63,123 nucleotides of DNA from an uncultured Pelagibacteraceae bacterium. GTDB lineage: Bacteria > Pseudomonadota > Alphaproteobacteria > Pelagibacterales > Pelagibacteraceae. The stretch spans positions 1-63,123 of the forward strand of contig CACHRI010000005.1 of the NCBI GenBank assembly GCA_902582155.1, written 5' to 3'. Below are positions 2 through 24,438 of this stretch, in pieces; the stretch's first letter is position 1, and each line of letters begins with the position of its first letter. The notes under the pieces are model-generated. The model had not been told where the DNA came from. It searched no databases and saw only the letters and a list, made by a program, of their open reading frames with translations. The position numbers were made by a program, and so were the translations under genes.

Positions 2-1330
2 GAAGCTGCTAAAGAGGAAGGCAGTTGGAAAGCTTCAAGTACATCAATTGAAAACACCATTGAAATACCTTCGATACCAAAAACAAAAAGAGGTTTAAAA
101 TTTCAAGCAGCTGCTGAGGAGCTTAATTTAATTAGTGACGAGTTCTTCGAGCTTCGTAATCATAATAATCAATATGCTTCGGCTTTGGAAAAACTAAAAA
201 AAGAGATTAAAGATTTCAGAACTAATCTTGGCTCTTCAGAGGAAATCGCTTCCTCTTTTGCAAAAGATATCTTAAAAATTGCAAGAAGAATTGAATACGC
301 AAGTATATTTCCGCCAAATACTTTGAAAGACATGCAGCTTTCAATAATTAATTTTGATAAAGCGCAAAAAAAAGAGCAAGGCACTTTAAGATGGATTGAT
401 ATACTTTTATTTCCGTCTGGTACTATTATTTCTAGTGGACCAAGTTGTTCAGAGCAAGGATCGGGTAGATGGTTACCCAAACCTTCAGATACAATTAATA
501 AATTTACATTAATGCTTAACCCTAATGTTGGTTACAAACAAATTCCATTAATTTGGTATGAAATGATGGATGTAAGTAAGATTATAGGTTTCTTAATTCC
601 TGATTGGTTTGCAGATGTTTTACCTGGTGAGTACCCAGTTCATAATGAACAGGGTGAAGTTAAACCCAACTTTAAAAGCAAAGTGTTAAGTTTTGTAACA
701 GGAGACTTCAATTTATTTAAAATTCCAATACCAACTGGTCATATATGGGACTCATTTTTAAGAGTGTTCCTTGGTCTTGTAGCAGGAATTATTGTAGGAG
801 TACCGTTAGGGCTTTTCATGGGATTAAATAGATTTGCAAAAGGATTTTTTGATCCCTTAATTGAACTTTACAGACCTGTACCACCATTAGCATGGGCACC
901 ATTAGTAATTTCAGTTCTTGGTATTGATAACCTTGGCAAAGTGTTCTTGTTATTTATGGTCTCGCTATCAATAATGATTATTTCGGCTAGGGCTGGTGCT
1001 TCAGGAACTCAATTATCCAAAATTCACGCCGCACATTCTCTTGGCGCATCTAATTGGCAAATATTAAGACATGTTATTTTCCCAAATTCTTTACCAGAAA
1101 TTCTTACTGGCATAAGAGTAGCAACAGGAATGTGTTGGGGAACTTTAGTAGCTGCAGAATTTTTAGCAGGAACGACTGGCGTTGGATTTGTAGAAAATGT
1201 CGCTAAAAAGTATTTCCAATATGAAGTAATATGGATAACTATATTTATTATGGGAATGTTAGGTTTGTTATTTGATATTACAATTAGAAAAATTATTGAT
1301 AAAACGATTCCTTGGCGAGGAAAAGGTTAG
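2..1330 (+). CDS. Taurine/sulfonate-type ABC transporter permease (5' end cut by window)
   Basis: The reading frame is open from base 2, so the gene starts upstream of the window; the TTG at 185 is internal. The C-terminal part, from about base 725, is a binding-protein-dependent permease domain of the TauC/SsuC type with several membrane segments. It carries the cytoplasmic EAA loop near bases 1030-1110 (AAHSLGAS followed by HVIFPNSLPEILTG), which docks to the ATPase. The roughly 240 residues before it are mostly hydrophilic, longer than in a plain SsuC protein, which suggests a fused or extended N-terminal half. Substrate is inferred from the sulfonate genes nearby; nitrate, cyanate or thiamine precursors are imported by the same family. 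Family certain, substrate tentative. Confidence 0.8.
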   Translation, partial: EAAKEEGSWKASSTSIENTIEIPSIPKTKRGLKFQAAAEELNLISDEFFELRNHNNQYASALEKLKKEIKDFRTNLGSSEEIASSFAKDILKIARRIEYASIFPPNTLKDMQLSIINFDKAQKKEQGTLRWIDILLFPSGTIISSGPSCSEQGSGRWLPKPSDTINKFTLMLNPNVGYKQIPLIWYEMMDVSKIIGFLIPDWFADVLPGEYPVHNEQGEVKPNFKSKVLSFVTGDFNLFKIPIPTGHIWDSFLRVFLGLVAGIIVGVPLGLFMGLNRFAKGFFDPLIELYRPVPPLAWAPLVISVLGIDNLGKVFLLFMVSLSIMIISARAGASGTQLSKIHAAHSLGASNWQILRHVIFPNSLPEILTGIRVATGMCWGTLVAAEFLAGTTGVGFVENVAKKYFQYEVIWITIFIMGMLGLLFDITIRKIIDKTIPWRGKG

Positions 1331-1336
1331 TCATTA

Positions 1337-1774
1337 ATGAAAAGGCTTTTGATCATAGTATTTATTTTTCTTCTTCCAGCATCTCTCTTCGCTGACGAAA
1401 AAGTAAAAGAAAAAAAAGTAGCTAAATATATCATGGAAAACATTCAAAAAGATTATTTAGATTGTTACAGTTTCTATAAGGTTGCAGCAGAGAGCTTTAA
1501 AAAGGCTGGGAAAGATCAGGGAATTATAAAAAATTTAGAAAATAGTGCAGATGTTTCATTGAAGTATAACTATGATTTAGGGGAAATTATGGGGTTAAAT
1601 CCTGAAGTTATGGCTGAGATGACTAAGACAAAAATAGATACGTTTGTGAAAATGGCAAACAAAGATTTTTCATCTTTAGCTAAAAAATATGGTCTCATGT
1701 GTAAGAGTTTGGTCGAAAATCCAGAGCAAAGAACAAATTACTGGGAACAAAAAGGTTCTAAAATAATTAAGTGA
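1337..1774 (+). CDS. Small periplasmic protein of unknown function
   Basis: A 145-residue protein with a clear Sec signal peptide (charged MKR, hydrophobic stretch to about residue 18, cleavage near LFA-DE). The mature part is helical, lysine-rich and has two cysteines (C43 in YLDCYS and one in GLMCKS near residue 122) that could form a disulfide. It sits 6 bases after the ABC permease and overlaps the next gene by 4 bases, so it is translated in the same operon. I do not recognise a family. The position suggests a periplasmic role linked to uptake or processing of the sulfonate, but nothing in the sequence shows this. Confidence 0.75.
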   Translation: MKRLLIIVFIFLLPASLFADEKVKEKKVAKYIMENIQKDYLDCYSFYKVAAESFKKAGKDQGIIKNLENSADVSLKYNYDLGEIMGLNPEVMAEMTKTKIDTFVKMANKDFSSLAKKYGLMCKSLVENPEQRTNYWEQKGSKIIK

Positions 1775-2781
1775 AAAAAAAAGCAATACTTTCAAAACTT
1801 CAAAGAATTTTCAAAAAACATAATCTTCCAAACAATCACTCCAGGATTTGTGCTAATTATTTACTTAAAGCTGAATTAATAAATGCACAGTCCCATGGTT
1901 TAGCAAGATTAAAGATGTATTGTGATAGACTGAAAAAAGGTCTTATAAATTCAAAACCAAAAATAAAAACAAAAAAAATCAGTTCATCTATCTCGCACAT
2001 TAATGCGGACAACAGTATTGGTTTTGTTGCTGCTGATATAGGTATTAAGGTAGCTATTAAAAATGCAAAAAAAACTGGAATTGGTCTTGTGGCTATTAAA
2101 AAAAGTGGTCATTACGGATTATCTAGTTTTTATGCCGAGCAAGCTGTAAAGAAAAATTTAATAGTATTTTGTTTTACTAATGCTCCTCCTGCTTTAGCGC
2201 CGCATGGAGCAAAAAAATCTTTGTTCGGAACTAATCCTATTTGCTTTGGAGCGCCAACAGGTAATACTCCTTTTATATTCGACTCTTCAGCTTCAATGAT
2301 TAATCGAGGTAAAATACGAAGAGCAGAAAAGTTGGGTTTAAAAATTCCTTTCGGCGTTGCTCTTAATAAAAAAGGAAAAATAACGACAGATGCTAAACAA
2401 GCCTTGCAAGGCACGCAACTACCTATAGCAGGATTTAAAGGTTCAGGTTTAGCTTGGATGGTTGATATACTAAGTGGTGTTTTGACTGGAAGCAGCCATG
2501 GCGGTAAAACAAAAGATCCTTTTGATGACTTTTCAGGACCACAAAACGTAGGACATTTATTTATTACAATTAATCCTAATGTTTTTTCAGGAAATAGTTT
2601 TTTAAAAGAGATGAAAAAAAATATCAAATTAGTTAAAAAACTTCCTAAAGCAAAAGGATTTGGCTCAATAATGTATCCTGGAGAAAGAAAAAATAAGATA
2701 TATAAAAAAAATATAAATAAAGATATATCTATACCTTCAAAAATACTGAAAGAAATGGAAGACCTTGATGCTAACGAATAA
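1771..2781 (+). CDS. comC: Ldh2-family dehydrogenase, probable sulfolactate dehydrogenase (ComC-like)
   Basis: This 336-residue protein belongs to the malate/L-lactate dehydrogenase (Ldh2/ComC) family, which reduces 2-oxo acids with NAD(P)H. Family blocks are visible: HGLARL near residue 43, the catalytic-histidine segment KKSGHYGLSSFYAE near residue 115, PHGAKKSLFGTNPICFGAP, and GFKGSGLAWMVDILSGVLTGS. In bacteria ComC and SlcC together interconvert sulfolactate enantiomers through sulfopyruvate. With suyAB, xsc and hpsN in the same window, sulfolactate is the most likely substrate, but malate, lactate or ureidoglycolate cannot be excluded from sequence. The start is a GTG overlapping the upstream stop (GTGA), a typical coupled start. 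Confidence 0.65.
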   Translation: MKKKAILSKLQRIFKKHNLPNNHSRICANYLLKAELINAQSHGLARLKMYCDRLKKGLINSKPKIKTKKISSSISHINADNSIGFVAADIGIKVAIKNAKKTGIGLVAIKKSGHYGLSSFYAEQAVKKNLIVFCFTNAPPALAPHGAKKSLFGTNPICFGAPTGNTPFIFDSSASMINRGKIRRAEKLGLKIPFGVALNKKGKITTDAKQALQGTQLPIAGFKGSGLAWMVDILSGVLTGSSHGGKTKDPFDDFSGPQNVGHLFITINPNVFSGNSFLKEMKKNIKLVKKLPKAKGFGSIMYPGERKNKIYKKNINKDISIPSKILKEMEDLDANE

Positions 2782-3676
2782 AAAAATAGTTTGTCCTGAA
2801 AATCTTTTAAAAATTGCAAAAGGTAAAGGTCCTGTAAAAGCCGTAATAGTTAATGCCGTTAAAAAAGTTGCAATAGAGTCAGCTAAGCAGGCCGTTGAGG
2901 CAAATTTAATAACACCATTGTTTGTTGGAGATAAGTCAATAATCGAAAAAATTTCAAAAGAAATCAATTGGGATATTTCAAAATATGAAATTGTTCATGA
3001 ACCTGATGAAAATAGCACTGCTCCGATTGCTGCTAAATTAGCTAGCGAAGGAAAAGTGAAAATAATAGTTAAAGGTCATATTCACACAGATGTTTTAATG
3101 AAAGCTGTATTAAAAAGAGATTTAAATCTAATAGGTAAAAAAAGATTGAGTCATGTATGGCACATGACACTAGAAAAAAATGATAAGCCATTCATCATTA
3201 CTGATGGCGCGTTAAACGTGCTACCTAAATTAGAAACTAAAATGCATATTCTAAAAAACTCTGTAGATTTCGCAAATAGGATAGGTATTGAAAAACCGAA
3301 AGTTTCAATTTTATCTGCTACTGAAGAAGTTTTAGAAAGTGTTCCAAGTTCTGTTGAAGCTAAAGAATTAACAAAAAGAGCTAAAGAAGAAGGTATTAAA
3401 GCTGATGTCTTTGGTCCTATGGCATTCGATAATTCAGTTTCCGAAAAAGCTGCTCAAATAAAAGGAATAAAAAATGTTGTTGCAGGAAAAACAGATATTC
3501 TATTAGTGCCTAATGTAGAAGCGGGCAATGGGTTAGTTAAAATGATGATATTTTTTATGGGCGCTTGTGCTGCGGGAGTAGTTGTGGGCGGTAAAGTGCC
3601 AGTTGTTATTACAAGTAGAGCAGACGATACTCAAGCAAGACTTGCCTCGATGGCTGCTGCTGTCGTGGCACTCTAA
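2768..3676 (+). CDS. pta: Phosphate acetyltransferase (PTA/PTB family)
   Basis: A 302-residue protein of the phosphate acetyl/butyryltransferase fold, the short form without the regulatory N-terminus of long Pta proteins. Visible blocks include VKGHIHTDVLMKAVL, SHVWHMTL, TDGALNVLP, VFGPMAFDN and VPNVEAGNGLVKMMIFF. It would convert the acetyl phosphate made by Xsc from sulfoacetaldehyde into acetyl-CoA; no acetate kinase is seen nearby, which fits that role rather than acetate formation. ATG 2768 is preferred over the TTG just before it; it lies inside the 3' end of the ComC-like gene (14-base overlap). Phosphate butyryltransferase is the alternative. Confidence 0.85.
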   Translation: MLTNKKIVCPENLLKIAKGKGPVKAVIVNAVKKVAIESAKQAVEANLITPLFVGDKSIIEKISKEINWDISKYEIVHEPDENSTAPIAAKLASEGKVKIIVKGHIHTDVLMKAVLKRDLNLIGKKRLSHVWHMTLEKNDKPFIITDGALNVLPKLETKMHILKNSVDFANRIGIEKPKVSILSATEEVLESVPSSVEAKELTKRAKEEGIKADVFGPMAFDNSVSEKAAQIKGIKNVVAGKTDILLVPNVEAGNGLVKMMIFFMGACAAGVVVGGKVPVVITSRADDTQARLASMAAAVVAL

Positions 3677-5624: not shown

Positions 5625-6629
5625 CTATGGAATAAGAATGATTTTTGGTGCTACGCAGGTCCCATTGTGTATTTCGTTGAATGCTTCAGAACCTTTTTTA
5701 AGATCTCTATATTCTATCCAGCTAAGATCACCAAGTTTTTGATTAGAGAGGATATCCAAAGTATTTTTAAAATCTTTATTGGTGTAGCAATAAGTACCAA
5801 CAAGAGTAACTTCTTGGATAGTTAATTTTTTAAAATTAAAGTCGCCGGTGGGTTGGGTTAAACCAATATGTATAATCGTTCCACCAGGAGCGATTGATTT
5901 GATTGCTTGTTGACGAGTAACCTCTAAACCAACAGACTCTAATATTAAATCAAAGTTATTTTCTTTTATAGATTTATCATCAGGGGAAACAAAGCTTGCT
6001 GAAAGATATTTTTTACACTCATTAAGTCTTTTTTTATTTGGGTCGGACATAATTATGTTTTTTGAATTTTTCTCTTTGTTGAGAATTAAGCCACAAAGAA
6101 GACCTATGGCCCCTGCTCCTTGAATTAAAATTTTACTTTCTGATAAAGGTTTTTTTAGATTTTGTTCAGCTAATAAAACAGCATGAAGAGCAACCGCTGT
6201 CGGTTCAGCTAAGGCAGCCTCTTTAATATTAAGTTTTTCTGAAATCTGAAAAATATTCTTTTCAGGAACAGAAACTAATTCAGCTAATCCACCTTCTCTT
6301 TTAGTTGGTGTGCTCATACCAATCATAGTTCTTTCCGGGCATAAATGCTCTCTATCGTTTTCACAATATTCACATTTATCACAACTAATAAGTGGATTAA
6401 CAACTACGTTTTTATCTTTGAATTTTCCATCTAAAGCTTTACCGCTTATTTCGTGACCTAGTATTAATGGCGGAACTCTTCTTTCGTCCTGTCCGTGGAA
6501 AGCATGCATATCAGAACCACATATGCCCGAAGCTTGAACTTTTATAATATTTTCACCAGGTTTTGGTGTTGGGTCTTTTTCTTCTCTGTAATCTATTTTT
6601 TGTGTTCCAGTGTAAACTAATGCATGCAT
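5625..6629 (-). CDS. Zinc-dependent medium-chain alcohol dehydrogenase, candidate DHPS 2-dehydrogenase (HpsP-like)
   Basis: A 334-residue MDR-family alcohol dehydrogenase. The catalytic zinc site is visible (GICGSD near residue 36 and GHEISG near residue 58), as are the structural zinc cysteines (CDKCEYC then HLC), and the NAD-binding fold (ILIQGAGAIGLLCG). It starts one base inside the hpsN stop, so the two are translationally coupled. In DHPS degraders, HpsO/HpsP oxidise (S)-DHPS at C2 to the ketone so that it can be re-reduced to the (R) form used by HpsN; this enzyme is placed to do that. Function inferred from operon; sorbitol/threonine dehydrogenases share the fold. Confidence 0.7.
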   Translation of the reverse strand: MHALVYTGTQKIDYREEKDPTPKPGENIIKVQASGICGSDMHAFHGQDERRVPPLILGHEISGKALDGKFKDKNVVVNPLISCDKCEYCENDREHLCPERTMIGMSTPTKREGGLAELVSVPEKNIFQISEKLNIKEAALAEPTAVALHAVLLAEQNLKKPLSESKILIQGAGAIGLLCGLILNKEKNSKNIIMSDPNKKRLNECKKYLSASFVSPDDKSIKENNFDLILESVGLEVTRQQAIKSIAPGGTIIHIGLTQPTGDFNFKKLTIQEVTLVGTYCYTNKDFKNTLDILSNQKLGDLSWIEYRDLKKGSEAFNEIHNGTCVAPKIILIP

Positions 6630-7915
6630 TAATTAGAGAAACCGTATTTCCTTAATCTAATATCCGCTGTTCGCGCGTGAGCTTCCATTCCTTCAGCTCT
6701 ACCAAGTCTTGCTGCTGTTGCTCCAACAACTTTTGTTGCATCTTTTGTCATTCTTTGGAAAGTTAATGTTTTAATAAATTTTCCAACGAATAGTCCGCCA
6801 GTATATCTTCCACCACCTTTTGTTGGTAATATATGATTTGTTCCTGAACATTTGTCTCCGTAAGCTACTGTAGTCTCTTCACCTAAAAATAACGAACCAT
6901 AGTTTCTTAATCTCTTTAACCACCAGTCTAATTTTTCTGCGTGAACTTCTAAGTGTTCAGAAGCATATTTATCACTCACTTCTGCCATTTCCTCATTAGT
7001 ATCGCAAAGAATTACTTCACCATAATCTTTCCAAGCAGCAGTAGCATTTACTTTTGCAAGTTCAGGTAATTCATTAATCAACTCTGGTACTCTTTTCATC
7101 GTAAAATCTGCTAACTCTTTATCTGTGGTGAATAACCATGCTGGGGAATTATATCCATGTTCCATCTGACCAACTAAATCAACGGCTACGATTTCTTTAT
7201 CAGCTGTCTTGTCTGCAATTATTGCAATTTCAGTAGGTCCAGCAAATTGATCAATGCCTACTTTTCCGTAAACAATCCTTTTAGCTTCAGCTACATATTG
7301 ATTTCCAGCTCCAACAAGAAAATCAACTGGAGGGTTTTTGAAACAACCATGTGTCATTGAACCTATTGCTGCAACTCCTCCCAAATTCATAATTACATCT
7401 GCACCACAATGATTAGCAGCAAAAATAATTCCTGGATTAGCTCCATCTTTATCTTTTGGCGGACTTGCACAAATTATAGTTTTAACACCAGCTACTTTAG
7501 CAGGTGTGATAGCCATCACAGCCGATGAAATATGAGCATATCTTCCACCTGGTATATAACAACCAGCTGTATCAACTGGAATTAATCTTTGTCCAGCGAA
7601 CAATCCTTTTGACAACTCAACTTCAAAATCATTATTCATGCTTTTCAATTGGTGCTCTGCAAATTTTCTAATTCTATCATGAGCAAATTTGACATCATCT
7701 TTAGTTTTTTGATCAACTTTTTTTATAGCTTCTTCAATTTTCTCTTTAGAGACAATAACTTCGCCCTCATACTTATCAAACTTTTTATTTAATTCTTTAA
7801 GAGCAACTTCTTTTCTTTTGGCAATATCATTTAAAATGTCTTGCACAGCTGCCTGTGTTTTATGATCATCCGTTTCCGGAGTTTTAGCTGCCTTTTTTAT
7901 ATATTTAACTGCCAT
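6629..7915 (-). CDS. hpsN: Sulfopropanediol 3-dehydrogenase (HpsN), histidinol dehydrogenase family
   Basis: A 428-residue protein of the histidinol dehydrogenase family. The zinc and catalytic residues are present: QMEH (Gln and His ligands), SEHLEVHAE, GDKCSGTNHILPT, and EAHARTADIR near the C-terminus. HpsN is the HisD-like enzyme that oxidises (R)-2,3-dihydroxypropane-1-sulfonate to (R)-sulfolactate with NAD. Here it sits in an operon with a TRAP transporter and an alcohol dehydrogenase, with no other his genes, so a histidine-synthesis role is unlikely. ATG 7915 is chosen because homology starts there; it overlaps the dctM end by 11 bases. Related HisD-like enzymes acting on other substrates remain possible. 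Confidence 0.8.
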   Translation of the reverse strand: MAVKYIKKAAKTPETDDHKTQAAVQDILNDIAKRKEVALKELNKKFDKYEGEVIVSKEKIEEAIKKVDQKTKDDVKFAHDRIRKFAEHQLKSMNNDFEVELSKGLFAGQRLIPVDTAGCYIPGGRYAHISSAVMAITPAKVAGVKTIICASPPKDKDGANPGIIFAANHCGADVIMNLGGVAAIGSMTHGCFKNPPVDFLVGAGNQYVAEAKRIVYGKVGIDQFAGPTEIAIIADKTADKEIVAVDLVGQMEHGYNSPAWLFTTDKELADFTMKRVPELINELPELAKVNATAAWKDYGEVILCDTNEEMAEVSDKYASEHLEVHAEKLDWWLKRLRNYGSLFLGEETTVAYGDKCSGTNHILPTKGGGRYTGGLFVGKFIKTLTFQRMTKDATKVVGATAARLGRAEGMEAHARTADIRLRKYGFSN

Positions 7916-14896: not shown

Positions 14897-16674
14897 TTAA
14901 GATTTTTTTGAGGTTTCATATCAGATTTTTTAATGCCAGCTACCTTTACAGGTTTTTTCATAGCATCTCTTCTGAACGGCTCACCTAATTCTTGGTTAAG
15001 TATAACTTCTATAAAAGTAGTTATCCCTTTTTTTTGATCCTCACACGATTGTTTAATTGCTTTAGTAGTTTCTTCCATTGACTTAACTGTTACACCTTTT
15101 AAACCACATGCATCAGCAACTTTAGCAAAGCTTAACTCTGGATCAAGCTCCGTGCCTATAAAGTTATTGTCAAACCATAATGTCGTATTTCTTTTTTCTG
15201 CTCCCCATTGGTAATTTCTAAAAATTACCATTGTTATTGCTGGCCACTCTTCTCGCGAACAAGAGCTCATTTCGTTCATGCTGATACCAAAAGCTCCGTC
15301 TCCAGCAAAACCAATTACTGGTACATCAGGACAACCAATTTTTGCTCCAAGTATAGATGGAAATCCATAGCCACAAGGACCAAACAAACCTGGGGCTAAA
15401 TATTTTCTACCTTTTTCAAAAGTTGGGTAAGCATTACCAATAGCACAATTGTTTCCAATATCACTTGATATAATTACATCTTCAGGCATTCCTGCTTGAA
15501 TTGCTCTCCAAGCTTGACGAGGTGACATTCTATCTTTATCTCTTGATCTAGCCTCTTTATTCCACACAGTTCCTGGATCGTCTTCTTCATGATCTAAGCT
15601 TGATAACTTTTGAAGCCAAGCAGACTTAGTTTGATGTATTAAATCTTTTCGTTTTTGTCTATCAGTATCACCTGCTTTTTTAGAAAGTTTATTTAATAAT
15701 TGTTGTGCCACTAATTTAGCATCACCACAAATACCGACTGTCACTTTTTTTGTTAAACCAATTCTATCTGAATTCATATCTACTTGAATGATTTTTGCAT
15801 TTTTTGGCCAGTAATCAATTCCATATCCAGGCAAAGTAGAAAATGGATTTAATCTTGTGCCTAAAGCTAAAACAACATCTGCCTTAGATATTAATTCCAT
15901 TGCAGCTTTCGATCCATTGTATCCTAAGGGTCCAACAGCTAAAGGATGGCTTCCTGGAAAACTATCATTATGTTGATAGCCTGAACAAACTGGAGAGTCT
16001 AATTTTTCAGCTAATTTTTTACAATCTTCTATAGCTCCACCTATTACGACTCCAGCTCCGGATAAAATTACTGGAAACTTAGCGTCAGATAATAATTTTG
16101 CAGCTTTATCTATAGCCTCTGCCCCGCCTGCCTGCTTCTCTAATCTAACGATTGGTGGTAATTCTATATCAATGACTTGAGTCCAATAATCTCTTGGAAC
16201 ATTAATTTGTGCGGGGGCAGATCCTCTTATCGCTTTTTCTATAACTCTATTTAAAACTTCAGCGATTCTTGAGGGATCTCTAACTTCTTCTTGATAACAA
16301 ACCATGTCTTTAAATAAATTCATCTGTTCTACTTCTTGGAAACCACCTTGTCCCATAGTTTTGTTAGCCGCTTGAGGTGTTACCAAAAGTAATGGTGTAT
16401 GATTCCAGTATGCAGTTTTGATCGGAGTTACTAATCCAGTAATTCCTGGTCCATTTTGAGCCACAACCATTGACATTTTTCCAGTAGCTCGAGTGTACCC
16501 ATCAGCTATTAGACCACCATTAGTTTCATGCGCAACATCCCAAAAAGTTATTCCAGCATCAGGAAAGATATGAGAAATAGGCATAAATGCTGAACCTATA
16601 ATTCCAAACGCGTGTTCAATACCGTGCATTTGTAAAACTTTTACAAAAGCTTCTTCTGTGGTCATTTTAGCCAT
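14893..16674 (-). CDS. xsc: Sulfoacetaldehyde acetyltransferase
   Basis: A 593-residue thiamine-diphosphate enzyme. It has the acetolactate-synthase fold with the activating glutamate in the first domain (VAHETNGGLIADGYTRATG), the TPP motif GFAGDGAFGISMNEMSS, and the Xsc-typical stretches FRNYQWGAEKRNTTLWFDNN and PRDYWTQVIDIELPP. Xsc converts sulfoacetaldehyde plus phosphate to acetyl phosphate and sulfite; Pta at 2768 then gives acetyl-CoA. Length and blocks fit Xsc rather than acetolactate synthase or oxalyl-CoA decarboxylase. It is divergent from suyA with a 74-base shared upstream gap. Confidence 0.93.
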   Translation of the reverse strand: MAKMTTEEAFVKVLQMHGIEHAFGIIGSAFMPISHIFPDAGITFWDVAHETNGGLIADGYTRATGKMSMVVAQNGPGITGLVTPIKTAYWNHTPLLLVTPQAANKTMGQGGFQEVEQMNLFKDMVCYQEEVRDPSRIAEVLNRVIEKAIRGSAPAQINVPRDYWTQVIDIELPPIVRLEKQAGGAEAIDKAAKLLSDAKFPVILSGAGVVIGGAIEDCKKLAEKLDSPVCSGYQHNDSFPGSHPLAVGPLGYNGSKAAMELISKADVVLALGTRLNPFSTLPGYGIDYWPKNAKIIQVDMNSDRIGLTKKVTVGICGDAKLVAQQLLNKLSKKAGDTDRQKRKDLIHQTKSAWLQKLSSLDHEEDDPGTVWNKEARSRDKDRMSPRQAWRAIQAGMPEDVIISSDIGNNCAIGNAYPTFEKGRKYLAPGLFGPCGYGFPSILGAKIGCPDVPVIGFAGDGAFGISMNEMSSCSREEWPAITMVIFRNYQWGAEKRNTTLWFDNNFIGTELDPELSFAKVADACGLKGVTVKSMEETTKAIKQSCEDQKKGITTFIEVILNQELGEPFRRDAMKKPVKVAGIKKSDMKPQKNLN

Positions 16675-16748: not shown

Positions 16749-17036
16749 ATGTCACAGCCTGATTTAATTATACATGATGAAAAAGATAATGTTGGTGTAG
16801 TTGTAATTGAAACCACAAAAAAAGGCCAAGATTGTAGTGCCTGGATCATGGAAAATGACAAAACTGTTAAAGTTAGCTCAATGAATGAAGTTCCTTTAGG
16901 TCACAAAATTGCTCTACAGGATTTAAAAGAAGGCGATACCATACTTAAATATGGTCATGATATAGGCAAAGTAGTTAAGCCTATAAAAAAAGGTGAACAT
17001 GTTCATGTTCATAATGTAAAAACAAAAAAATGGTAA
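16749..17036 (+). CDS. suyA: (2R)-sulfolactate sulfo-lyase subunit alpha
   Basis: A 95-residue SAF-domain protein, the small half of an UxaA-type dehydratase split into two genes. Visible are the beta-rich N-terminal part, [22 protein letters not shown] and the end [12 protein letters not shown]. SuyA forms the sulfo-lyase with SuyB, which cleaves (R)-sulfolactate to pyruvate and sulfite. The split arrangement is the same in altronate dehydratase, but the sulfonate context and immediate neighbours (suyB 4 bases on, xsc opposite) favour SuyA. Confidence 0.88.
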
Positions 17037-17040: not shown

Positions 17041-18207
17041 ATGGAAATCCCAAAGAGTTTTTTAGGTTATAAAAGAGAGAACGGTAGAGCAGGTACAAGA
17101 AACCACGTAATTATTCTTCCAGTTGACGATATTTCGAACGCTTGCGCTGAAGCTGTGGCTAATAATATTAAAGGCACGATTGCTTTACCTCATTCATATG
17201 GAAGATTACAGTTTGGGGCAGATTTAGAATTACATTTTAGAACAATGATTGGGACTGGAAAAAATCCAAATGTTGCAGCAGTAATTGTTATTGGGATTGA
17301 ACCTAAGTGGACAAAGAGAATTGTAGATGAGATAGCAAAAACAGGAAAACCTGTTGAGGGATTTCATATAGAGAGAACCGGGGACATAGGTACAATAATG
17401 AAGGCTTCAAAAAAAGCACAAGAATTTTCTCAATGGGCTTCTGAAAAACAGAGAGAAGAATGTCCTTTAAGTGATTTATGGATTTCAGTTAAATGCGGAG
17501 AATCTGATACAACATCTGGCTTAGCATCAAACCCAACAGTAGGAAATTTAATGGAAAAATTAGAGCCATTTGGGGTTCATCTATGTTTTGGAGAAACTTC
17601 TGAATTGACAGGAGCTGAAAAAGTTTGTGCAGCTAGGGGAGCAACACCAGAGGCTAAAGATAAGTTTATGAAAACATGGAATGCTTATAATGATTTCATT
17701 TTAAAAGAAGCAACGGATGATCTATCTGAAAGTCAACCAACAGCTGGAAATATCGCTGGAGGTTTAACAACAATAGAAGAAAAGGCTTTCGGAAATTTTC
17801 AAAAAATAGGAAATTTAAAATTTATTGATGTTTTAGAACCTGCTGAGGAACCTAAAAAAGGGAAAGGTTTATATTTTATGGACACATCATCTGCCGCGGC
17901 TGAATGTGTAACTTTGCAAGCTGCTGGTGGTTTTAATATTCACTTATTTCCTACTGGACAAGGAAATATTATTGGAAATCCTATTGAACCAGTAGTTAAA
18001 CTAACTGCCAATCCCTTAACTGCAAAATTAATGAAGGAACATGTTGACTGCGATGTTTCAAAAATTCTGTCAAGAGAAATGAATTTATCTCAAGCTGGTG
18101 ATGAGTTAATTAAGACTATGTTGAGAGTAGCTAATGGTAGACTTACTTGTGCAGAAGCTTTAGGTCATAGAGAGTTTGTAATGACCAAGCTTTATAGAAG
18201 TGCTTAA
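17041..18207 (+). CDS. suyB: (2R)-sulfolactate sulfo-lyase subunit beta
   Basis: A 388-residue protein of the UxaA/GarD family large domain, which holds an iron centre. The start [26 protein letters not shown] is typical, as are [17 protein letters not shown] (substrate/iron region) and [23 protein letters not shown]. With SuyA it removes sulfite from sulfolactate, giving pyruvate. It overlaps the next gene by one base (TAATG). D-altronate or galactarate dehydratase is the alternative; no hexuronate genes are seen. Confidence 0.9.
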
Positions 18208-18605
18208 TGTCTAAAGCAGAAGACTCCTGTATTTTTTGTAATAAATCCAACTGTAAAATTATTGAAGAAAAAAATTTTTTTTTTATAATAAGAGATACAG
18301 CCTACCCCGTAACAAAACACCATACACTAATAATTTCTAATAGACACATTGACGATTATTTTAAACTTACCTCAGAAGAACTTAATGAACTTAATCAAAT
18401 ATTAAAAGAACAAAAAGAAAAACTAAAATTATTAGACTCAACAATTAGCGGTTATAATGTTGGAGTTAATATAGGAAAAGATGCAGGACAATCAATTATG
18501 CACTGTCATATACATTTAATACCTAGAAGAAAAGGCGATGTTGATGATCCTAAGGGTGGTGTTAGAGGAGTAATACCTTCTAAACAAAAATATGTTAGAA
18601 AATAA
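18207..18605 (+). CDS. HIT-family hydrolase
   Basis: A 132-residue histidine-triad protein with the catalytic motif H99-C-H101-I-H103 and four cysteines or histidines near the N-terminus (C8, C11, H38/H39) that may bind zinc, as in Hint-type proteins. HIT enzymes hydrolyse AMP linked to amines, lysine, or sulfate; Hint proteins have been shown to split adenosine 5'-phosphosulfate. Being coupled to suyB and near aprAB makes APS a candidate substrate here, but this is only inference. Convergent with tauE, one base apart. Confidence 0.88.
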   Translation: MSKAEDSCIFCNKSNCKIIEEKNFFFIIRDTAYPVTKHHTLIISNRHIDDYFKLTSEELNELNQILKEQKEKLKLLDSTISGYNVGVNIGKDAGQSIMHCHIHLIPRRKGDVDDPKGGVRGVIPSKQKYVRK

Positions 18606-18606: not shown

Positions 18607-19737
18607 TTATTTTTCAGGAAATTTAACTTCTTCTCCTTTTTTTGGCTCTTTTTTTCTAAAGTCGCTTAACATTTTTCTAATAACAGGACTTAAAATTTTT
18701 CTCATAAACGCTATTAAAGCGCCAAATGCTACGGCTAATAAAATTGCAAGCGTTCCATATAAAAAAGGTACTTCACTAGCAAAATTTACTGTAAATTCAG
18801 CTAAAGGGTTTAAATCTGTTTTTATAACTTTTTCTCCATTAAAATTAGATTTATCTCTAAAGAAAGAGTCATAACCAATTGCAATAGCTACTGAAATGAG
18901 AAGCATTGCAAATAAAGATTTTAATTCAGTGCTATCTAAAAACTGACCAAGTTTTTGACCAAGTTGAACACCTACTATTGAACCAAGTATTAATGGTACA
19001 ACTAAAAATAGGTCAATCGATCCATAATTAAATGCGTGTAGGACAGTTACAATTGCACTTATAAAAATAGTAACAAATAATGAAGTTCCTGGTATTAATT
19101 TTATTGGCATTCCGACAATATAAATCATAGCTGGAACCATTAAGAACGCACCGCCAATTCCCATCATTGCCGCTACGAAGCCAACTATTAACCCTAACAA
19201 AATTGGAGTTAAAGCACTTTCATATAATTTTGATTTTGGAAATCTCATTCTGATTGGCAATCCTTGAAGCCAATTATGATCATGCAGTTTTTGTTTGATA
19301 GGAGCTTTTTTGCTTTGAAGCGTTTTTTCTTTATAAGTTTGGATTAACATCAAAGTTCCAACAATCGCGAGTAGATACATATATAATAGTGAAATAATTA
19401 TACTTATTTTTCCGATATCAGAAAAAAATGTAAATGTTGTTATTCCTAAAATTGTTCCTACTACGCCGCCTGAAACAATCATTAATCCCATCTTATAGTC
19501 AAGTGTATTTTTATACCAATGAGTTAGAGATCCAGAAACGGAAGTGGCTAAAATATTATTTACTTCATTTGGCACAGCATAAACAGGGGGTATTCCCATA
19601 AATATTAAAAATGGTGTCATCAAAAAACCTCCACCAACACCAAATAAACCTGATAAAACTCCAACAGCTAAACTTAAGAATAGTAATAAAAAGATGTCAA
19701 TATTGACTTGAGCAATTGGAAGATAAATTTCCAGCAT
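18607..19737 (-). CDS. tauE: TauE/SafE-family sulfite exporter
   Basis: A 376-residue membrane protein with two repeats of the TauE/SafE family, each beginning with a glycine-rich helix (LSGLFGVGGGFLMTPFLIFMGIPP and VAAMMGIGGAFLMVPAMIYIVG). About eight to ten segments, with a charged loop of about 40 residues in the middle and a long C-terminal extension ending in KKGEEVKFPEK. Members next to xsc export the sulfite released by desulfonation. That role fits here, between suyAB and aprAB. Confidence 0.87.
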   Translation of the reverse strand: MLEIYLPIAQVNIDIFLLLFLSLAVGVLSGLFGVGGGFLMTPFLIFMGIPPVYAVPNEVNNILATSVSGSLTHWYKNTLDYKMGLMIVSGGVVGTILGITTFTFFSDIGKISIIISLLYMYLLAIVGTLMLIQTYKEKTLQSKKAPIKQKLHDHNWLQGLPIRMRFPKSKLYESALTPILLGLIVGFVAAMMGIGGAFLMVPAMIYIVGMPIKLIPGTSLFVTIFISAIVTVLHAFNYGSIDLFLVVPLILGSIVGVQLGQKLGQFLDSTELKSLFAMLLISVAIAIGYDSFFRDKSNFNGEKVIKTDLNPLAEFTVNFASEVPFLYGTLAILLAVAFGALIAFMRKILSPVIRKMLSDFRKKEPKKGEEVKFPEK

Positions 19738-19773: not shown

Positions 19774-20124
19774 TTAATAAATTGTTGCTCCGAATACTTT
19801 TATTAAGTCCCCTTCAACGCCCAAAACTAATCTACCTAGAAATTCTCCTTTAACAGTATCGCTTTTTTGCTTATACAAAACAGTAATAAAATTATCTCTT
19901 CTTATGCAGCCTAAAACTTCTTGTTTCTCAGAAAGACTTGTTAGCAGTTTATTACTAGCCCATTGCTTTCCTAGTTCTACCTCATTTGCTCCATAAAGCA
20001 TCTGGGATGAGAAGTCCCTTGTAAACCCCCCGTAGTCTTTAATGTTAGAGGACTTAACTAAATTAGACCAAATAGGACCAGCGATCTTAATGATTTCATC
20101 ATCGCTTTTCTCTAACAAGTTCAT
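19774..20124 (-). CDS. Conserved-looking protein of unknown function downstream of aprA
   Basis: A 116-residue soluble protein from ATG 20124; a longer form from 20163 would overlap aprA by 29 bases and adds only a basic tail, so the inner start is preferred. It has an N-terminal helix (SDDEIIKIAGPIWSNLVKSSN), a segment DYGGFTRDFSSQML and a C-terminal beta-rich half, reminiscent of a small alpha+beta (NTF2-like) fold, but I do not recognise it. Last gene of the aprM-aprB-aprA operon, so probably linked to sulfite oxidation. Confidence 0.65.
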   Translation of the reverse strand: MNLLEKSDDEIIKIAGPIWSNLVKSSNIKDYGGFTRDFSSQMLYGANEVELGKQWASNKLLTSLSEKQEVLGCIRRDNFITVLYKQKSDTVKGEFLGRLVLGVEGDLIKVFGATIY

Positions 20125-20134
20125 TTTGATATGT

Positions 20135-21994
20135 TTAAGAGGCTTTCTTTTTCTTTTCGTCACCTACTATGTGATAAACTGGCATCTTCTCTAAAGTGAA
20201 CTTACCTGTTTTAGGATCTCTTCTAGAAACTGTTAAACAATGCCAATTTTCATCATCAAGTTTTAATTTATCGCCTCTGTAATAATATCCTGGCCAACGA
20301 GTTTCTTCTCTGAATAGTGTATGCTCAGTTACACATTGTGATGTCAATGTTCTGTGTTTTAATTCCCAAGCTCTCATTAATTGGTGGTAATCTTCTGCAC
20401 CAACATTTTCTAAATCTTCTTGTAACCAATCTAATAATTCTAAACCTTTTTTTAATAAATTATCATTAGTCATATAATTAGCAGTGATACCACCAACATA
20501 TTCATCCATTATTTTTTGAAGTCTTTGTAATCCCTGTATTGGTGAAATATAACTTGGGGAAACGGTTCCACCTGTTATTTCATTTCTTCCAACTGTGTAA
20601 TTATCTAGTGGTTTGTAAATAATTTCTTTTAAATTTTCACACTGTTTATCGCTTACATTTATTTCCTCTGCTTTTTTATCCTCTATATACTTGACTGCAG
20701 CTTTTGCGGCTAATCTTCCTTCAGTAAAAGAACCAGAAGAAAACTTATGCGCGCTTCCTCCTACTGTATCTCCAGCACCAAATAAACCTTCAACAGTAGT
20801 CATTCTATTATAGCCCCAAAAGTATTCTGGTGGCGCAATATCCTCAGGACCACTTACCCATGCGCCCGAACAAGTAGCATGAGATCCCATTACATACGGC
20901 TCTGATGTTGTGAGCTCAGGATTGGTATATTTTGGATCGATATTTTGTGAAGCCCACACAACAGCTTGACCTACTGTCATTCCTAAGAAATTTTCCCATC
21001 CAACTGTTTCTAAATGGGGATCTTGAAAAGCTTCTTTAGTTACCATGTGAATTGGGCCTCCACCGGCCATTACTTCTTGAATAAACGCATGATTTCTTAA
21101 ACAAGTCGGAGTTGGGTGATGATCTATGTATTCTCCTACTAACTCTTTTGTTTTATCATACCATTTCTTTTCGTAGTTTTCCCCATTAGCATTTTGTGTA
21201 TATGTTTTTAAATGTAAAAAATAAGCGCCGACTGGACCGTAACCATCTTTAAATCTACATAATACAATTCTATTCTCCATTTGTGTCATCTTAGCACCTG
21301 CTGCTATCGGTAAAGCATAAGCAGATCCATTGCTCCATGGAGCATACCAAGTTCTGCCCATACCTTCTCCAACTGCTCTAGGTTTAAAAATATGTGAGGC
21401 TCCACCAGCAGCTACTATTACTGTTTTTGCTTTAAATACGTGATAGTCTCCGGTTCTCATATTAAATCCTACTGCACCACCTACTCTATTTTGATTATTC
21501 TCATCCATTAATAAATGCGTAACCATTATTCTATTATAAATTTTATCAGCAGATTTTTTTGCAGCTTCAGCTACGATAGGTTTATAGCTTTCTCCATGAA
21601 TCATTATTTGCCATTTACCTTCTCTTTGGTATCTGCCAGTTTTTTTATCTTTCATCATTGGAAGACCCCATTCATCAAACATATGAACTGTGGAGTCCAC
21701 ATGACGGGCCATATCGTAACCAAGATCTTCTCTTACTAGTCCCATAAGATCGTTTCTTGCATACCTAACATGATCTTCAGGTTGATTTTCATTCCACCTC
21801 ATACCCATGTAGCAGTTAATAGCGTACAAGCCTTGGGCCACTGCACCACTTCTATCTATATTAGCTTTTTCTACACAGATGATTTTTAAATCTCTTCCCC
21901 AGTGTCTAGCTTCAAATGTAGCACCTGTTCCGGCCATACCTCCGCCTACTACAAGAACATCACAATCTTCGTGAACAGTTTTTCTTTTTGGCAT
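20135..21994 (-). CDS. aprA: Adenylylsulfate reductase subunit alpha
   Basis: A 619-residue flavoprotein of the succinate dehydrogenase/fumarate reductase superfamily. The FAD-binding motif DVLVVGGGMAGTGATFEARHW is at the N-terminus, and AprA-specific stretches include NCYMGMRWNENQPEDHVRYARND, WQIMIHGESYKPIVAEAA and FGAGDTVGGSAHKFSSGSFTEGRLAA. AprA with AprB interconverts APS and sulfite plus AMP; in non-sulfate-reducing aerobes it works in the oxidising direction. It overlaps aprB by one base. Confidence 0.95.
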   Translation of the reverse strand: MPKRKTVHEDCDVLVVGGGMAGTGATFEARHWGRDLKIICVEKANIDRSGAVAQGLYAINCYMGMRWNENQPEDHVRYARNDLMGLVREDLGYDMARHVDSTVHMFDEWGLPMMKDKKTGRYQREGKWQIMIHGESYKPIVAEAAKKSADKIYNRIMVTHLLMDENNQNRVGGAVGFNMRTGDYHVFKAKTVIVAAGGASHIFKPRAVGEGMGRTWYAPWSNGSAYALPIAAGAKMTQMENRIVLCRFKDGYGPVGAYFLHLKTYTQNANGENYEKKWYDKTKELVGEYIDHHPTPTCLRNHAFIQEVMAGGGPIHMVTKEAFQDPHLETVGWENFLGMTVGQAVVWASQNIDPKYTNPELTTSEPYVMGSHATCSGAWVSGPEDIAPPEYFWGYNRMTTVEGLFGAGDTVGGSAHKFSSGSFTEGRLAAKAAVKYIEDKKAEEINVSDKQCENLKEIIYKPLDNYTVGRNEITGGTVSPSYISPIQGLQRLQKIMDEYVGGITANYMTNDNLLKKGLELLDWLQEDLENVGAEDYHQLMRAWELKHRTLTSQCVTEHTLFREETRWPGYYYRGDKLKLDDENWHCLTVSRRDPKTGKFTLEKMPVYHIVGDEKKKKAS

Positions 21995-22464
21995 TAATAA
22001 TAAACTCCCTTTTTAAAAGAGTCTTTGCTAATTGTAGGTAAATCTTTCTTAGTATCTAATCCCTCAGGTTCAGAGTAAAGAACTTGAGAATTCATTTCAC
22101 CTTGACGAGGTTTATCTCCTTCTGCTAATTTTGGAATAAATTTTCCCCAGGGTTTTGTTGTAATAGGAGAGACAAAATCTTTTTCTGTTCCATTTCTAAA
22201 TTTAATTTTCCATGAAATAGTCCCTTTTTCCTCTTCTCTTCTCACTCTTACACTATGGCCCATAGGTGCAAAATCTGCATATCCTCTTACATCAATGGCA
22301 TGGTTTGGACATGCTTTTACACATGAATAGCATTCCCAACAAAAATTTGGTTCTATATTTTTAGCTCTTCTAATTGTTTCATCAATATGCATGATGTCTG
22401 AAGGACAAATATCTACACAGTGTCCGCATCCATCACATCTTGTCATATATACAAAAGTAGACAT
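21994..22464 (-). CDS. aprB: Adenylylsulfate reductase subunit beta
   Basis: A 156-residue iron-sulfur protein. Eight cysteines in two ferredoxin-like sets (C10, C13, C16, C20 and C42, C45, C48, C52) hold two [4Fe-4S] clusters that carry electrons from the FAD of AprA. The C-terminal 90 residues form the AprB-specific tail (SPITTKPWGKF) that wraps around AprA. Upstream of aprA and downstream of aprM in one minus-strand operon. Confidence 0.95.
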   Translation of the reverse strand: MSTFVYMTRCDGCGHCVDICPSDIMHIDETIRRAKNIEPNFCWECYSCVKACPNHAIDVRGYADFAPMGHSVRVRREEEKGTISWKIKFRNGTEKDFVSPITTKPWGKFIPKLAEGDKPRQGEMNSQVLYSEPEGLDTKKDLPTISKDSFKKGVYY

Positions 22465-22527
22465 AATTATTTCCTCTCAGTTTCTATATTAGCTTTAAAT
22501 AATTTACTAGTTTTATTAATCATGATG

Positions 22528-23319
22528 TTAATAATGTTTTGGTTGTTCTCTTTTAATACCAAGGCCAAATTGCTCTGGTGCATCCGCGGGAGGAGGCAAA
22601 TTGTCTCTAGACCCGTCTGCCTCTGCTAAATTTTTTTGTATAGCAGCGCCTGGTTTATAAAACATGTGTGCAAATTTAGACCAATAAACTCCACCAAATA
22701 AAGCTAAATTTGCAAGAATAAATAAAATTAAAAATAAATAACTTAATCCCATCATTCCTGAAGATTGAAAATAAGACCAAGCTAATCCAAAAGTAGCGCA
22801 AGCAAGTAAAGCTAAAACAAATAAATCTGCAGTTATAATTCTATACCAAGGATGTGCCTCTGCGGATACATCTACTCTTAAAAAAAACCAAAACCAATAC
22901 CCACCTAAACATGTCATTATTGCCCCTACATGCCAGATAATTGGAATATAAGATGGTGCTGTTACGCCATCGGAATATTTAAAAATTAAAACTACAGATG
23001 CGATCCAAAAAAGGATTGTTCCATACATTCCAAGCACATGAGCTAATCTTCTCTTTCCAAATCCAAGTTCCGATGTAGTCGCGATATCACTAGCAACTGT
23101 TTTTAAAATTACGGCTGTTTTTTTTCCAGCGCTTAATTCTGTTTTTGCGGATTTTTTTGCTTTTTGAGCATTTCTAAAAAAATAAACTACATTTTTTTTG
23201 TGTAGCATATCTAAGCCTGTTCCAATAATGATTAGTAATACCATCGCAATTACAAAAAATTGCAAGAAAGTTGCTGGCACTGTTTGTGAAAGTTCTGCAA
23301 ATGGATTAATTGATAACAT
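22528..23319 (-). CDS. aprM: AprM-like membrane anchor of adenylylsulfate reductase
   Basis: A 263-residue membrane protein with about six segments (near residues 18-36, 98-118, 128-146, 164-182, 190-212) and a hydrophilic C-terminal tail. It has histidines within or beside membrane segments (RLAHVLGMYG, IIWHVGAIM, FAHMFYKPG), as in the heme b/nitrate-reductase-gamma type proteins. In SAR11 and some other bacteria such a gene, aprM, precedes aprB-aprA and is thought to pass electrons to the quinone pool. Assigned mainly on position and topology. Confidence 0.8.
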   Translation of the reverse strand: MLSINPFAELSQTVPATFLQFFVIAMVLLIIIGTGLDMLHKKNVVYFFRNAQKAKKSAKTELSAGKKTAVILKTVASDIATTSELGFGKRRLAHVLGMYGTILFWIASVVLIFKYSDGVTAPSYIPIIWHVGAIMTCLGGYWFWFFLRVDVSAEAHPWYRIITADLFVLALLACATFGLAWSYFQSSGMMGLSYLFLILFILANLALFGGVYWSKFAHMFYKPGAAIQKNLAEADGSRDNLPPPADAPEQFGLGIKREQPKHY

Positions 23320-23370
23320 AAATAATTTTAGTAGTTTGATGTATACAGGTCAAGTGAGAACAATTCGCAA

Positions 23371-23763
23371 TTATTTTAGCTTTCCATCCTTTCTCATTTG
23401 CTCTCTAATTTTAGTCGCTGAAATTTGCTGCGTCTTTTCGTCAAGAACTATTTCTTCGATTTTATAACCAACACCTCTTCCATAACAAATGTTTGTTAGA
23501 TTTGGTACTAAAGTAACTTTTATTCTGCCTCGGTAATCTTTTAAAGCCTCTAAAATATTTTTTTTTACTGTTTCAAAATTAAAAGGATTGTCATCTACAC
23601 CTTGGACGTCACGTACCATAATATTAACTTGACCAGTTTTTTTTAGTATCTCTTCAAATAATTTCTGATGACCAGCATGCCAAGGTTGCCATCTTCCAAG
23701 CATTTGGGCAGTGGGTTTTTTGTTATCCCAGACATGACCATCGTTTTTCATTTGGCCTGTCAT
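23371..23763 (-). CDS. Small HxGH nucleotidyltransferase
   Basis: A 130-residue protein of the cytidylyltransferase-like superfamily. It has the nucleotide-binding H29-A-G-H32 preceded by GRWQPWHAG, and near the end ISATKIREQMRK, which resembles the ISxT-x-x-R signature of this superfamily, shared with ATP sulfurylase and NMN adenylyltransferase. It is much shorter than ATP sulfurylase (about 400 residues). Located between a CADD-like gene and aprM on the same strand. Its acceptor is unknown; coupling to APS metabolism is a guess from context. Confidence 0.8.
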   Translation of the reverse strand: MTGQMKNDGHVWDNKKPTAQMLGRWQPWHAGHQKLFEEILKKTGQVNIMVRDVQGVDDNPFNFETVKKNILEALKDYRGRIKVTLVPNLTNICYGRGVGYKIEEIVLDEKTQQISATKIREQMRKDGKLK

Positions 23764-23772
23764 AAAGATTAT

Positions 23773-24438
23773 TTAGGCAGCTGCTTGTATTTTGTGCTTT
23801 GTAGACATTCCGCTTAAGAAGTTCCAAAGATATCTAGCAGTCAACATAGAAGCTTTTTCTGCTTTAACTTTTTCTTCTTCTGTCAAAGCATCTAAAAGTT
23901 TTTCACACTCTTTTCTATGAATTACGTCAGCAGCTTTATGAGCTTCAAAAAACTCAAGACCCTCTTTAGATGTAACTCCATAAAAGTTTTTCAACCCTCT
24001 TATTTTCGTTTCAGCTATTTCAGGAATTTGTCTTTCGTAAGTATATAAAGATGCTAAACCTTCTGCATATGATTTTCTTGCTTGATGGAAAAAGTTTTCA
24101 ATCATATCGTTAGTAAACCACTCTCTTTTTACATCTTCGATTTTATCTTTGTCAGCACCCATTGCCAATGCAAAGTTTTTCCAAAGCTTAGGATGATCCG
24201 CGTTTGGATTTTCCTCGTCTTGAAGATTTTCTAAAAGAATTTTTCTTTTTTCAATGTCCTCACAAATAGAATGTGTAGCGCTGATATATCTTGGAAACGC
24301 TTTCACGTGTTGGTAATATTGTTCTGCGTAATCTTTAATTATTTCTCTTGTTAATTTTCCTTCATTCCATGACTTATAGAATGGGTGGTTTAATAAATGG
24401 TACTGGTCTAATTTTTTGTTTAGCTCTTGTGAAAACAT
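23773..24438 (-). CDS. CADD/PqqC-like (TENA superfamily) protein, possible PABA synthesis
   Basis: A 221-residue all-helical protein of the heme-oxygenase-like fold. Marks are HPFYKSWNEGKLTREIIKDYAEQYYQHVKAFPRYIS at residues 18-52 and EFFEAHKAADVIHRKEC near residue 180, with glutamate and histidine ligands for a di-metal site. Its closest known types are Chlamydia CADD and Nitrosomonas NE1434, oxygenases that make p-aminobenzoate from their own tyrosine. No pqq genes are present, so PqqC itself is unlikely. First gene of the run leading to aprMBA, with a gap of 9 bases to the nucleotidyltransferase. Confidence 0.8.
   Translation of the reverse strand: MFSQELNKKLDQYHLLNHPFYKSWNEGKLTREIIKDYAEQYYQHVKAFPRYISATHSICEDIEKRKILLENLQDEENPNADHPKLWKNFALAMGADKDKIEDVKREWFTNDMIENFFHQARKSYAEGLASLYTYERQIPEIAETKIRGLKNFYGVTSKEGLEFFEAHKAADVIHRKECEKLLDALTEEEKVKAEKASMLTARYLWNFLSGMSTKHKIQAAA

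Follow-up and report, generated by a model that had tools for sequence, protein, structure and literature searches.

Here we describe a block of organosulfonate genes at the start of a contig from an uncultured Pelagibacteraceae bacterium (SAR11), and we propose a function for a small nucleotidyltransferase (NTase) encoded in its apr operon. The whole contig, 63123 bases long, is called the window in what follows; its source genome measures 977 kb and is 88% complete. We give a rough probability of 0.6 to the reading that this NTase represents a third class of ATP sulfurylases, compact and belonging neither to Sat nor to CysDN, which would serve the synthesis of 3′-phosphoadenosine 5′-phosphosulfate (PAPS) and sulfate assimilation together with a short kinase of adenosine 5′-phosphosulfate (APS) in marine bacteria and many viruses. 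Recruited, most simply twice, beside the SAR11 AprBA, it would run backwards there and draw ATP from sulfonate-derived sulfite, with a HIT protein alternating at the same locus. What is new here is the NTase, and the HIT protein, as a candidate for the missing APS step; most of the sulfonate block is already in print.

In the route that we consider probable, in which the NTase is the compact non-Sat ATP sulfurylase of the apr operon (an activity that we infer from gene context), the block would dissimilate 2,3-dihydroxypropane-1-sulfonate (DHPS), sulfolactate and probably taurine. DHPS would enter through a tripartite ATP-independent periplasmic (TRAP) transporter of predicted substrate, HpsN would oxidise (R)-DHPS to (R)-sulfolactate, and SuyAB would split sulfolactate into pyruvate and sulfite. 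Sulfoacetaldehyde derived from taurine would be converted to acetyl-CoA and sulfite by Xsc and Pta. AprBA, with AprM, would then turn sulfite and AMP into APS and two electrons, and the NTase would move the adenylyl group of APS onto pyrophosphate to yield ATP and sulfate, which would be an ATP sulfurylase function, in the presumed direction, carried by a protein outside the Sat family. In other SAR11, the APS step may fall to the HIT protein next to aprM, which would convert APS to AMP or, with phosphate, to ADP and so gain no ATP.

The starting point is a gap in the known pathway. According to PMC10356861, most SAR11 are without ATP sulfurylase; therefore the APS made by AprBA has no assigned next step. 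Likewise, PMC5069961 notes the absence of sat and cysDNCHIJ from Ca. Pelagibacter ubique and ascribes to AprBA a possible role in sulfite detoxification; in a table there, the five strains listed with aprA are also those listed with cysC. Indeed, the window's genome has no match to the ATP sulfurylase family PF01747 and none to the APS kinase family PF01583. A gene for a CysQ-like 3′(2′),5′-bisphosphate nucleotidase (29434-30210, 209.9 bits, cut-off 228.8) is present in this genome without an APS kinase match. We then considered 198 genomes of the order, including 159 with a strong AprA, 154 with the NTase and 120 with a HIT homologue (11 weak AprA matches, with best E of 1.4e-4 to 6.3e-4, were scored as absent); several of these genomes are incomplete, so that single gene absences mean little. 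PF01747 was matched in 10 of the 198, and 8 of these belong to the 159 with AprA. The Sat genes of the order (L264-L271) are rare and divergent; by eye, an APS-kinase-like open reading frame (ORF) adjoins three of the eight (L265, L269, L271) and a pyruvate-kinase-like ORF adjoins those of L269-L271. A long ORF of the CysNC type is found in 10/198 genomes (one partial), none of which has the NTase or AprA, and CysNC was rejected as a general alternative because of this low number. In the literature, preprints not covered, we found no alternative ATP sulfurylase and nothing on this NTase or on the HIT protein as a candidate for the APS step.

The genes of the window that bear on this step are the following:

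23371..23763, minus strand: compact nucleotidyltransferase (NTase), candidate ATP sulfurylase (CTP_transf_like, PF01467, 21.2 bits, cut-off 21)
22528..23319, minus strand: AprM, putative membrane anchor (positioned between the NTase gene and aprB; weak QmoC match, 24.4 bits, cut-off 300)
21994..22464, minus strand: AprB (TIGR02060, 187.7 bits, cut-off 135.65)
20135..21994, minus strand: AprA (TIGR02061, 1000.2 bits, cut-off 641.75)
19774..20163, minus strand: g23, small conserved protein directly behind aprA (no Pfam match)
18607..19737, minus strand: TauE/SafE exporter (PF01925, 160.7 bits, cut-off 32.6)
18207..18605, plus strand: HIT protein, candidate APS hydrolase or phosphorylase (PF01230, 64.1 bits, cut-off 21.5)

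On the minus strand, the order is CADD, NTase, aprM, aprB, aprA, g23 and tauE, with successive gaps of 9, 51, 63, -1, -29 and 36 bases. No Pfam model matched AprM at E 0.01, and we take its name from its position. A homologue of g23 (116-129 aa) stands directly behind aprA in all 18 apr loci compared, which come from two families (L033-L047, L057, L068, L069), and g23 is probably part of the Apr system. The locus resembles the known Apr-Sat oxidation of sulfite, by AprBA and an ATP sulfurylase of PF01747, in that AprA and AprB exceed their cut-offs and the last step would give ATP and sulfate; it differs in that no Sat was found, the place in the locus being taken by an NTase of 130 aa or by a HIT protein.

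The NTase has a motif of the HxGH type. We aligned 57 sequences, namely 49 of 166 stretches after removal of redundancy, the one from the window and 7 others. The motifs GR.QP.H.GH, GR.VGY and IS.T..R are invariant in all of them; G23, R24, Q26, P27, H29, G31, H32, G95, R96, V98, G99, Y100, I114, S115, T117 and R120 are among the invariant residues. A relative from f2, another family of the same order, reaches 16.7 bits for PF01467, below the cut-off. The best 80 NTase relatives listed comprise 79 Pelagibacter, Pelagibacteraceae or Pelagibacterales records and one Euryarchaeota metagenome-assembled genome (L132), which agrees with a placement of this DNA in SAR11.

The NTase is the element common to settings with an APS kinase, CysH, sulfotransferases or AprBA, which share the metabolites APS and PAPS, mostly in genomes without Sat or CysN, and this argues that it is a sulfate adenylyltransferase. 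Outside the order, strong NTase matches (E below 1e-38) were found in 7 genomes of a class-wide sample of 386; in a phylum sample of 397, G336 was the sole match besides the window's own genome, and 5 of 50,697 phage records matched. In relatives, the partner of the NTase, here called CysC′, belongs to the APS kinase family PF01583 (22.8-45.4 bits in five ORFs, cut-off 21.1). In an alphaproteobacterial genome (G250, 89% complete), the NTase is the last gene of a run composed of CbiX, a tetrapyrrole methylase (TP_methylase), a NIR_SIR protein read as CysI, a PAPS_reduct protein read as CysH, an 88-aa ORF, CysC′ (22.8 bits) and the NTase, with gaps of -20 to 66 bases; in this genome, PF01747 found no match and CysN did not reach its cut-off. 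The gene families of the run predict an operon for assimilatory sulfate reduction, in which the NTase occupies the place expected for the sulfurylase. Altogether, none of the 16 NTase genomes tested has a PF01747 match.

The viral loci are consistent with these observations. Among the best 80 of at least 592 candidate stretches, 78 were readable (L201 and L221 were dropped, their NTase ORF being unreadable), and the NTase is fused to an APS-kinase-like partner in 20 and has one next to it in 55, which leaves 3 where no such partner was seen. Moreover, 30 of the 78 loci have a neighbour from a single cluster of 30 ORFs, and the one member of this cluster that was examined is a sulfotransferase (PF13469, 35.2 bits); of two more viral neighbours, one lies below the sulfotransferase cut-offs and one has no match. 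ORFs of the sulfotransferase family also adjoin the CysC′-NTase pair in L053 and L173 and stand 2.7 kb off in L176; none was seen by eye beside the pair in L174, L175 and L178. Two phages, one of the Casjensviridae and the other Stenotrophomonas phage DLP_6 (L070, L071), carry CysC′-NTase fusions that are annotated as 'kinase' or hypothetical; a gene named cysteine dioxygenase lies nearby in the former. The phage 'kinase' family phrog_10255 is likewise a CysC′-NTase fusion (P0001, 296.7 bits), to the second half of which the window's NTase matches with 91.3 bits; it differs in that no sulfate role is assigned there and that the window's protein is the NTase half alone. These arrangements recall PAPS synthesis by Sat-CysC or CysN-CysC, since the adenylyltransferase of the relatives is fused to, or beside, a protein of the APS kinase family, near CysH and CysI or sulfotransferases. 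They differ from it in that the NTase is small and of the CTP_transf_like or NMN adenylyltransferase type, that the kinase is short and divergent, and that the window's NTase has no kinase.

Across the order, AprA and the NTase occur together in 143 of the 198 genomes and are both missing in 28. In f2, both are found in 24 genomes, AprA alone in 1, the NTase alone in none and neither in 16. The 198 genomes are related to one another, so that a Fisher value on this co-occurrence is not a fair probability. Gene positions were available for 150 of the 159 AprA genomes, 150 of the 154 NTase genomes and 119 of the 120 HIT genomes; the counts of genes near apr, that is within 6 kb of aprA, are therefore lower bounds. 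The NTase is near aprA in 11 of the 11 listed loci of the window's genus and in 21 of 23 of f2, and the two proteins alternate at the locus: the NTase, the HIT protein or both lie near apr in 140 of 150 loci.

This alternation also suits another explanation, in which it is really the HIT protein that consumes APS in SAR11 and the NTase either makes APS for PAPS and sulfation or is a passenger of the apr locus; we consider it unlikely. In the family's other genera, 108 of the 116 genomes listed have a HIT homologue near aprA; in the five loci read from one of these genera (L039-L043), it lies immediately upstream of aprM. Of the 16 AprA genomes without an NTase match, 12 carry a HIT homologue. 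In these other genera, the NTase stands with CysC′, away from apr. In the window's genus, however, HIT was found near aprA at 6 of the 11 listed loci and not at the other 5, whereas the NTase is beside apr in all 11, and no f2 genome has a HIT match at E 1e-25. Furthermore, 10 of the 12 AprA genomes of the window's genus have no PF01583 match, so that Apr would be the one evident consumer there of any APS that the NTase made. HIT proteins such as Hint4 and DcpS, which share the HIT domain PF01230 with the SAR11 candidate, reportedly act on APS: two HIT proteins are said to have been published in 2010 by Guranowski as cleaving it, as hydrolases or phosphorylases. The HIT protein is thus a plausible stand-in at apr, which is the role that the sulfurylase proposal would also give it.

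The placement of the NTase beside apr differs between the two families. In the window's genus it is upstream of aprM. In f2 it is downstream of apr and convergent with it (L044-L047), with a kinase-like ORF before it in L044-L046. In the tree of the 57 NTases, whose bootstrap had not settled, the window's sequence falls near fused kinase-NTase proteins, and a single clade of the five apr-linked rows was rejected (approximately unbiased test, p 2.5e-5), in a test whose groups of 2 and 3 rows were defined by apr linkage and which came after a first FastTree. The two arrangements and the rejected clade therefore suggest that, most simply, the linkage of the NTase to apr was gained at least twice.

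Several observations weigh against an ATP sulfurylase function of the NTase beside apr. First, membership of the Sat family was rejected (hhalign probability 12% against 8 Sat proteins of the SAR11 order); the match to PF01747 reaches 14.1 bits (cut-off 24.3; E 0.031) over residues 72-128. The CysC′ partner aligns with about the first 90 of the 152 positions of PF01583 and was below the NCBIfam apsK cut-off in both ORFs tested. CysN is present in 2 of the 16 NTase genomes in which it was searched (G402, G600), and the table of PMC5069961 lists cysN for SAR11 HTCC7211 and HIMB59. Within the order, 16 genomes have AprA without an NTase match and 11 the NTase without AprA, and a strict rule linking the two was rejected on these numbers; 15 AprA genomes have neither PF01747 nor the NTase, and 7 genomes have both of these. 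At none of the 116 loci listed for the family's other genera does the NTase lie near apr, and three loci (L054 from G079, L088, L089) keep it beside tauE without apr. PMC10356861 indicates that cultured SAR11 were not shown to excrete sulfate from taurine. Finally, a profile of the 57 NTases found nicotinamide mononucleotide (NMN) adenylyltransferases as its nearest solved relatives in the PDB (1f9a, E 1.1e-10).

This last result, together with a Pfam assignment that says only CTP_transf_like, is what would be expected if the NTase were an ordinary nucleotidyltransferase, acting on NMN or another substrate and unrelated to APS, with AprBA only detoxifying sulfite and APS being hydrolysed unspecifically. 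Still, we find this improbable: the NTase scores 27.7 bits against a curated NMNAT/NadD cut-off of 127, and all 9 NTase genomes examined have a separate NadD match at another place, which exceeds the cut-off in 6 of them, by which the NTase was rejected as the only NAD adenylyltransferase. Moreover, its partners, namely APS-kinase-like proteins, CysH and CysI, sulfotransferases and Apr, share APS and PAPS.

The other genes of the block are as follows:

2..1330, plus strand: TauC-type ATP-binding cassette permease, truncated at its 5′ end where the contig begins (NCBIfam TauC, 175.6 bits, cut-off 342)
1771..2781, plus strand: LDH2-family dehydrogenase, ComC-like, possibly a sulfolactate dehydrogenase (NF040650, 243.8 bits, cut-off 500)
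2765..3676, plus strand: phosphate acetyl/butyryltransferase, Pta (PF01515, 112.5 bits, cut-off 24; NF006045, 307 bits, cut-off 282)
5625..6629, minus strand: zinc alcohol dehydrogenase, HpsP-like (8wwd, 244 bits, next chain 102; 37% identity to the Cupriavidus pinatubonensis homologue)
6629..7942, minus strand: HpsN, DHPS 3-dehydrogenase (8v35, 518 bits, against 248 for HisD; 56% identity to C. pinatubonensis HpsN)
7905..9239, minus strand: TRAP large permease (TIGR00786, 269.1 bits, cut-off 268.45)
9236..9850, minus strand: TRAP small permease (PF04290, 77.5 bits, cut-off 28.3)
9915..11009, minus strand: TRAP substrate-binding protein (2hzk, 112 bits; NF037995, 49.2 bits, cut-off 50)
13338..14105, plus strand: short-chain dehydrogenase/reductase (SDR) oxidoreductase (best models all below cut-off among 25 listed; 29% identity to HpsO)
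14893..16674, minus strand: Xsc, sulfoacetaldehyde acetyltransferase (TIGR03457, 969.6 bits, cut-off 676.4)
16749..17036, plus strand: likely SuyA (SAF domain, 22.2 bits; 52% identity to the C. pinatubonensis homologue)
17041..18207, plus strand: likely SuyB, sulfolactate sulfo-lyase large subunit (PF20629, 282 bits; 69% and 65% identity to the Paracoccus and Cupriavidus homologues)

An earlier note on this DNA had claimed a dense block for the catabolism of C2 and C3 sulfonates between positions 2 and 24438, and the genes that it named are present there; its gene list held neither the NTase nor the HIT protein. Xsc, AprA, AprB, TauE, the TRAP permeases and the Pta/Ptb fold exceed curated cut-offs, and genes for C3 sulfonates (HpsN, the HpsP-like protein and the likely SuyAB), C2 sulfonates (Xsc and Pta) and sulfite disposal (TauE and AprBA) lie together. 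Pta would be the partner of Xsc. The gene order of the block recurs in related genomes; the block is therefore not a chance assembly. The idea that these genes work as one route fared less well: they form six alternating strand runs, which implies six transcription units or more, and genes unrelated to the route lie in between (a methyltransferase, GYD, GMC, TerC and M23). The ComC-like and SDR genes stand where the note had them, but their similarities do not establish the roles given to them. The ComC model is the best of five LDH2 models for the 1771..2781 protein (a ureidoglycolate dehydrogenase model gives 224.6 bits), which shows at most 41.6% identity among the plasmid matches listed, and its score, far from the cut-off, led us to reject it as a proven ComC or sulfolactate dehydrogenase. 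The SDR was rejected as HpsO, given its low identity and no PDB chain at 1e-48.

The assignment of HpsN was borne out, as its closest solved relatives are named DHPS dehydrogenases. NCBIfam models give the HisD family only; the solved sulfopropanediol 3-dehydrogenase 8v35 far outscores the best histidinol dehydrogenase, and by similarity the protein is closer to characterised HpsN and not a histidinol dehydrogenase. Its true start may be at about 7906. The eight genomes with HpsN of at least 95% identity, window included, gave no second HisD-family match, and a HisD-like match at 30-36% was found in 22/37 genomes of the genus. Either histidine synthesis has been lost in these eight genomes, or HpsN doubles as HisD, or the genomes are incomplete; the search was for the HisD family only, other his genes not being searched. 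As regards the zinc dehydrogenase, the title of 8wwd is 'zinc-containing alcohol dehydrogenase', and HpsP is the name that we take the C. pinatubonensis dehydrogenase gene to have. SuyA and SuyB are a pair of a small SAF and a large GD_AH subunit, 46% and 69% identical to that of Paracoccus versutus and distinct from galactarate dehydratase (model 155 bits, cut-off 730.85). The matched Cupriavidus and Paracoccus records say only 'UxaA family hydrolase', and the name SuyAB, which we presume, therefore rests on neighbour genes, the Cupriavidus pair standing beside hpsN-hpsO.

Known systems help to place the block. The DHPS and sulfolactate cluster of C. pinatubonensis (L276) consists of hpsN, hpsO, a major facilitator superfamily (MFS) transporter gene, a dehydrogenase gene and a UxaA pair, the zinc dehydrogenase gene standing between the MFS and SuyA-like genes, behind hpsN-hpsO. 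HpsN, the zinc dehydrogenase, SuyA and SuyB are shared at the identities given above, but the window has a TRAP transporter in place of MFS, no HpsO-like neighbour, and AprBA for sulfite. In SAR11, PMC11131964 describes HpsO, HpsP and HpsN homologues active on DHPS in HTCC1002 and HIMB5, with (R)-DHPS oxidation shown for the HTCC1002 HpsN homologue. The enzyme families are the same as in the window; their genes, according to that source, do not share one operon, whereas in the window and in 10/10 long loci of the same genus (L058-L067) the HpsP-like gene and hpsN form an uninterrupted series with the three genes of the TRAP transporter. This contiguity is a new detail of a block that as such is already in print.

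Two relatives that share the block (L272, L273) carry tauA- and tauB-like ORFs, an aminotransferase and an alanine dehydrogenase just beyond the point that corresponds to the window's left edge. In L273, the SsuA/TauA-type binding protein and the TauB-type ATPase are below cut-offs, the class-III aminotransferase has the omega-aminotransferase AptA as its best model (581 bits, cut-off 500), and the alanine dehydrogenase reaches 457 bits (cut-off 392). These genes make the use of taurine through Xsc likely.

The earlier note had also suggested a sulfonate-specialised SAR11 lineage. The hps-TRAP cluster does vary within the genus: in a search covering this genus and f2, HpsN of at least 72% identity was found in 15 of 37 genomes of the same genus. 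In the order sample, a strong AprA is present in 12 of 19 genomes of this genus. In the sister genome G079 (L054), a large part of the block is lost: hps-TRAP, GMC, SDR, xsc, suyAB, HIT and apr were not found, and TerC, M23, tauE, NTase and CADD are still side by side. The lineage claim is weakened because, according to PMC12636525, the core genes of Pelagibacteraceae include aprAB, which removes sulfite, and suyAB and xsc are core or nearly so in this family, and because the order xsc-suyAB-tauE-apr is shared with another genus (5/5 loci, L039-L043). That the block is an ordinary dense one that defines such a lineage, with nothing missing or new, therefore seems hardly credible to us: its pathway genes are present and it occurs in part of the genus only, but such a reading runs against this core status and leaves the APS step without an enzyme.

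Elsewhere in the window, on the minus strand, we noted an IMES-2 RNA motif (27891-28032, 154.5 bits) and a glycine riboswitch aptamer (58289-58375, 70.6 bits), the latter upstream of genes that by eye appear to be for glycine cleavage.

If the NTase is the ATP sulfurylase of the apr operon, sulfonate use would yield substrate-level ATP and sulfate, and SAR11 would complete the cycle that leads from the sulfonates of algae to sulfate. A family present in 78 or more viral contigs would then also gain a function, as would the stray cysC genes that have been listed for SAR11.

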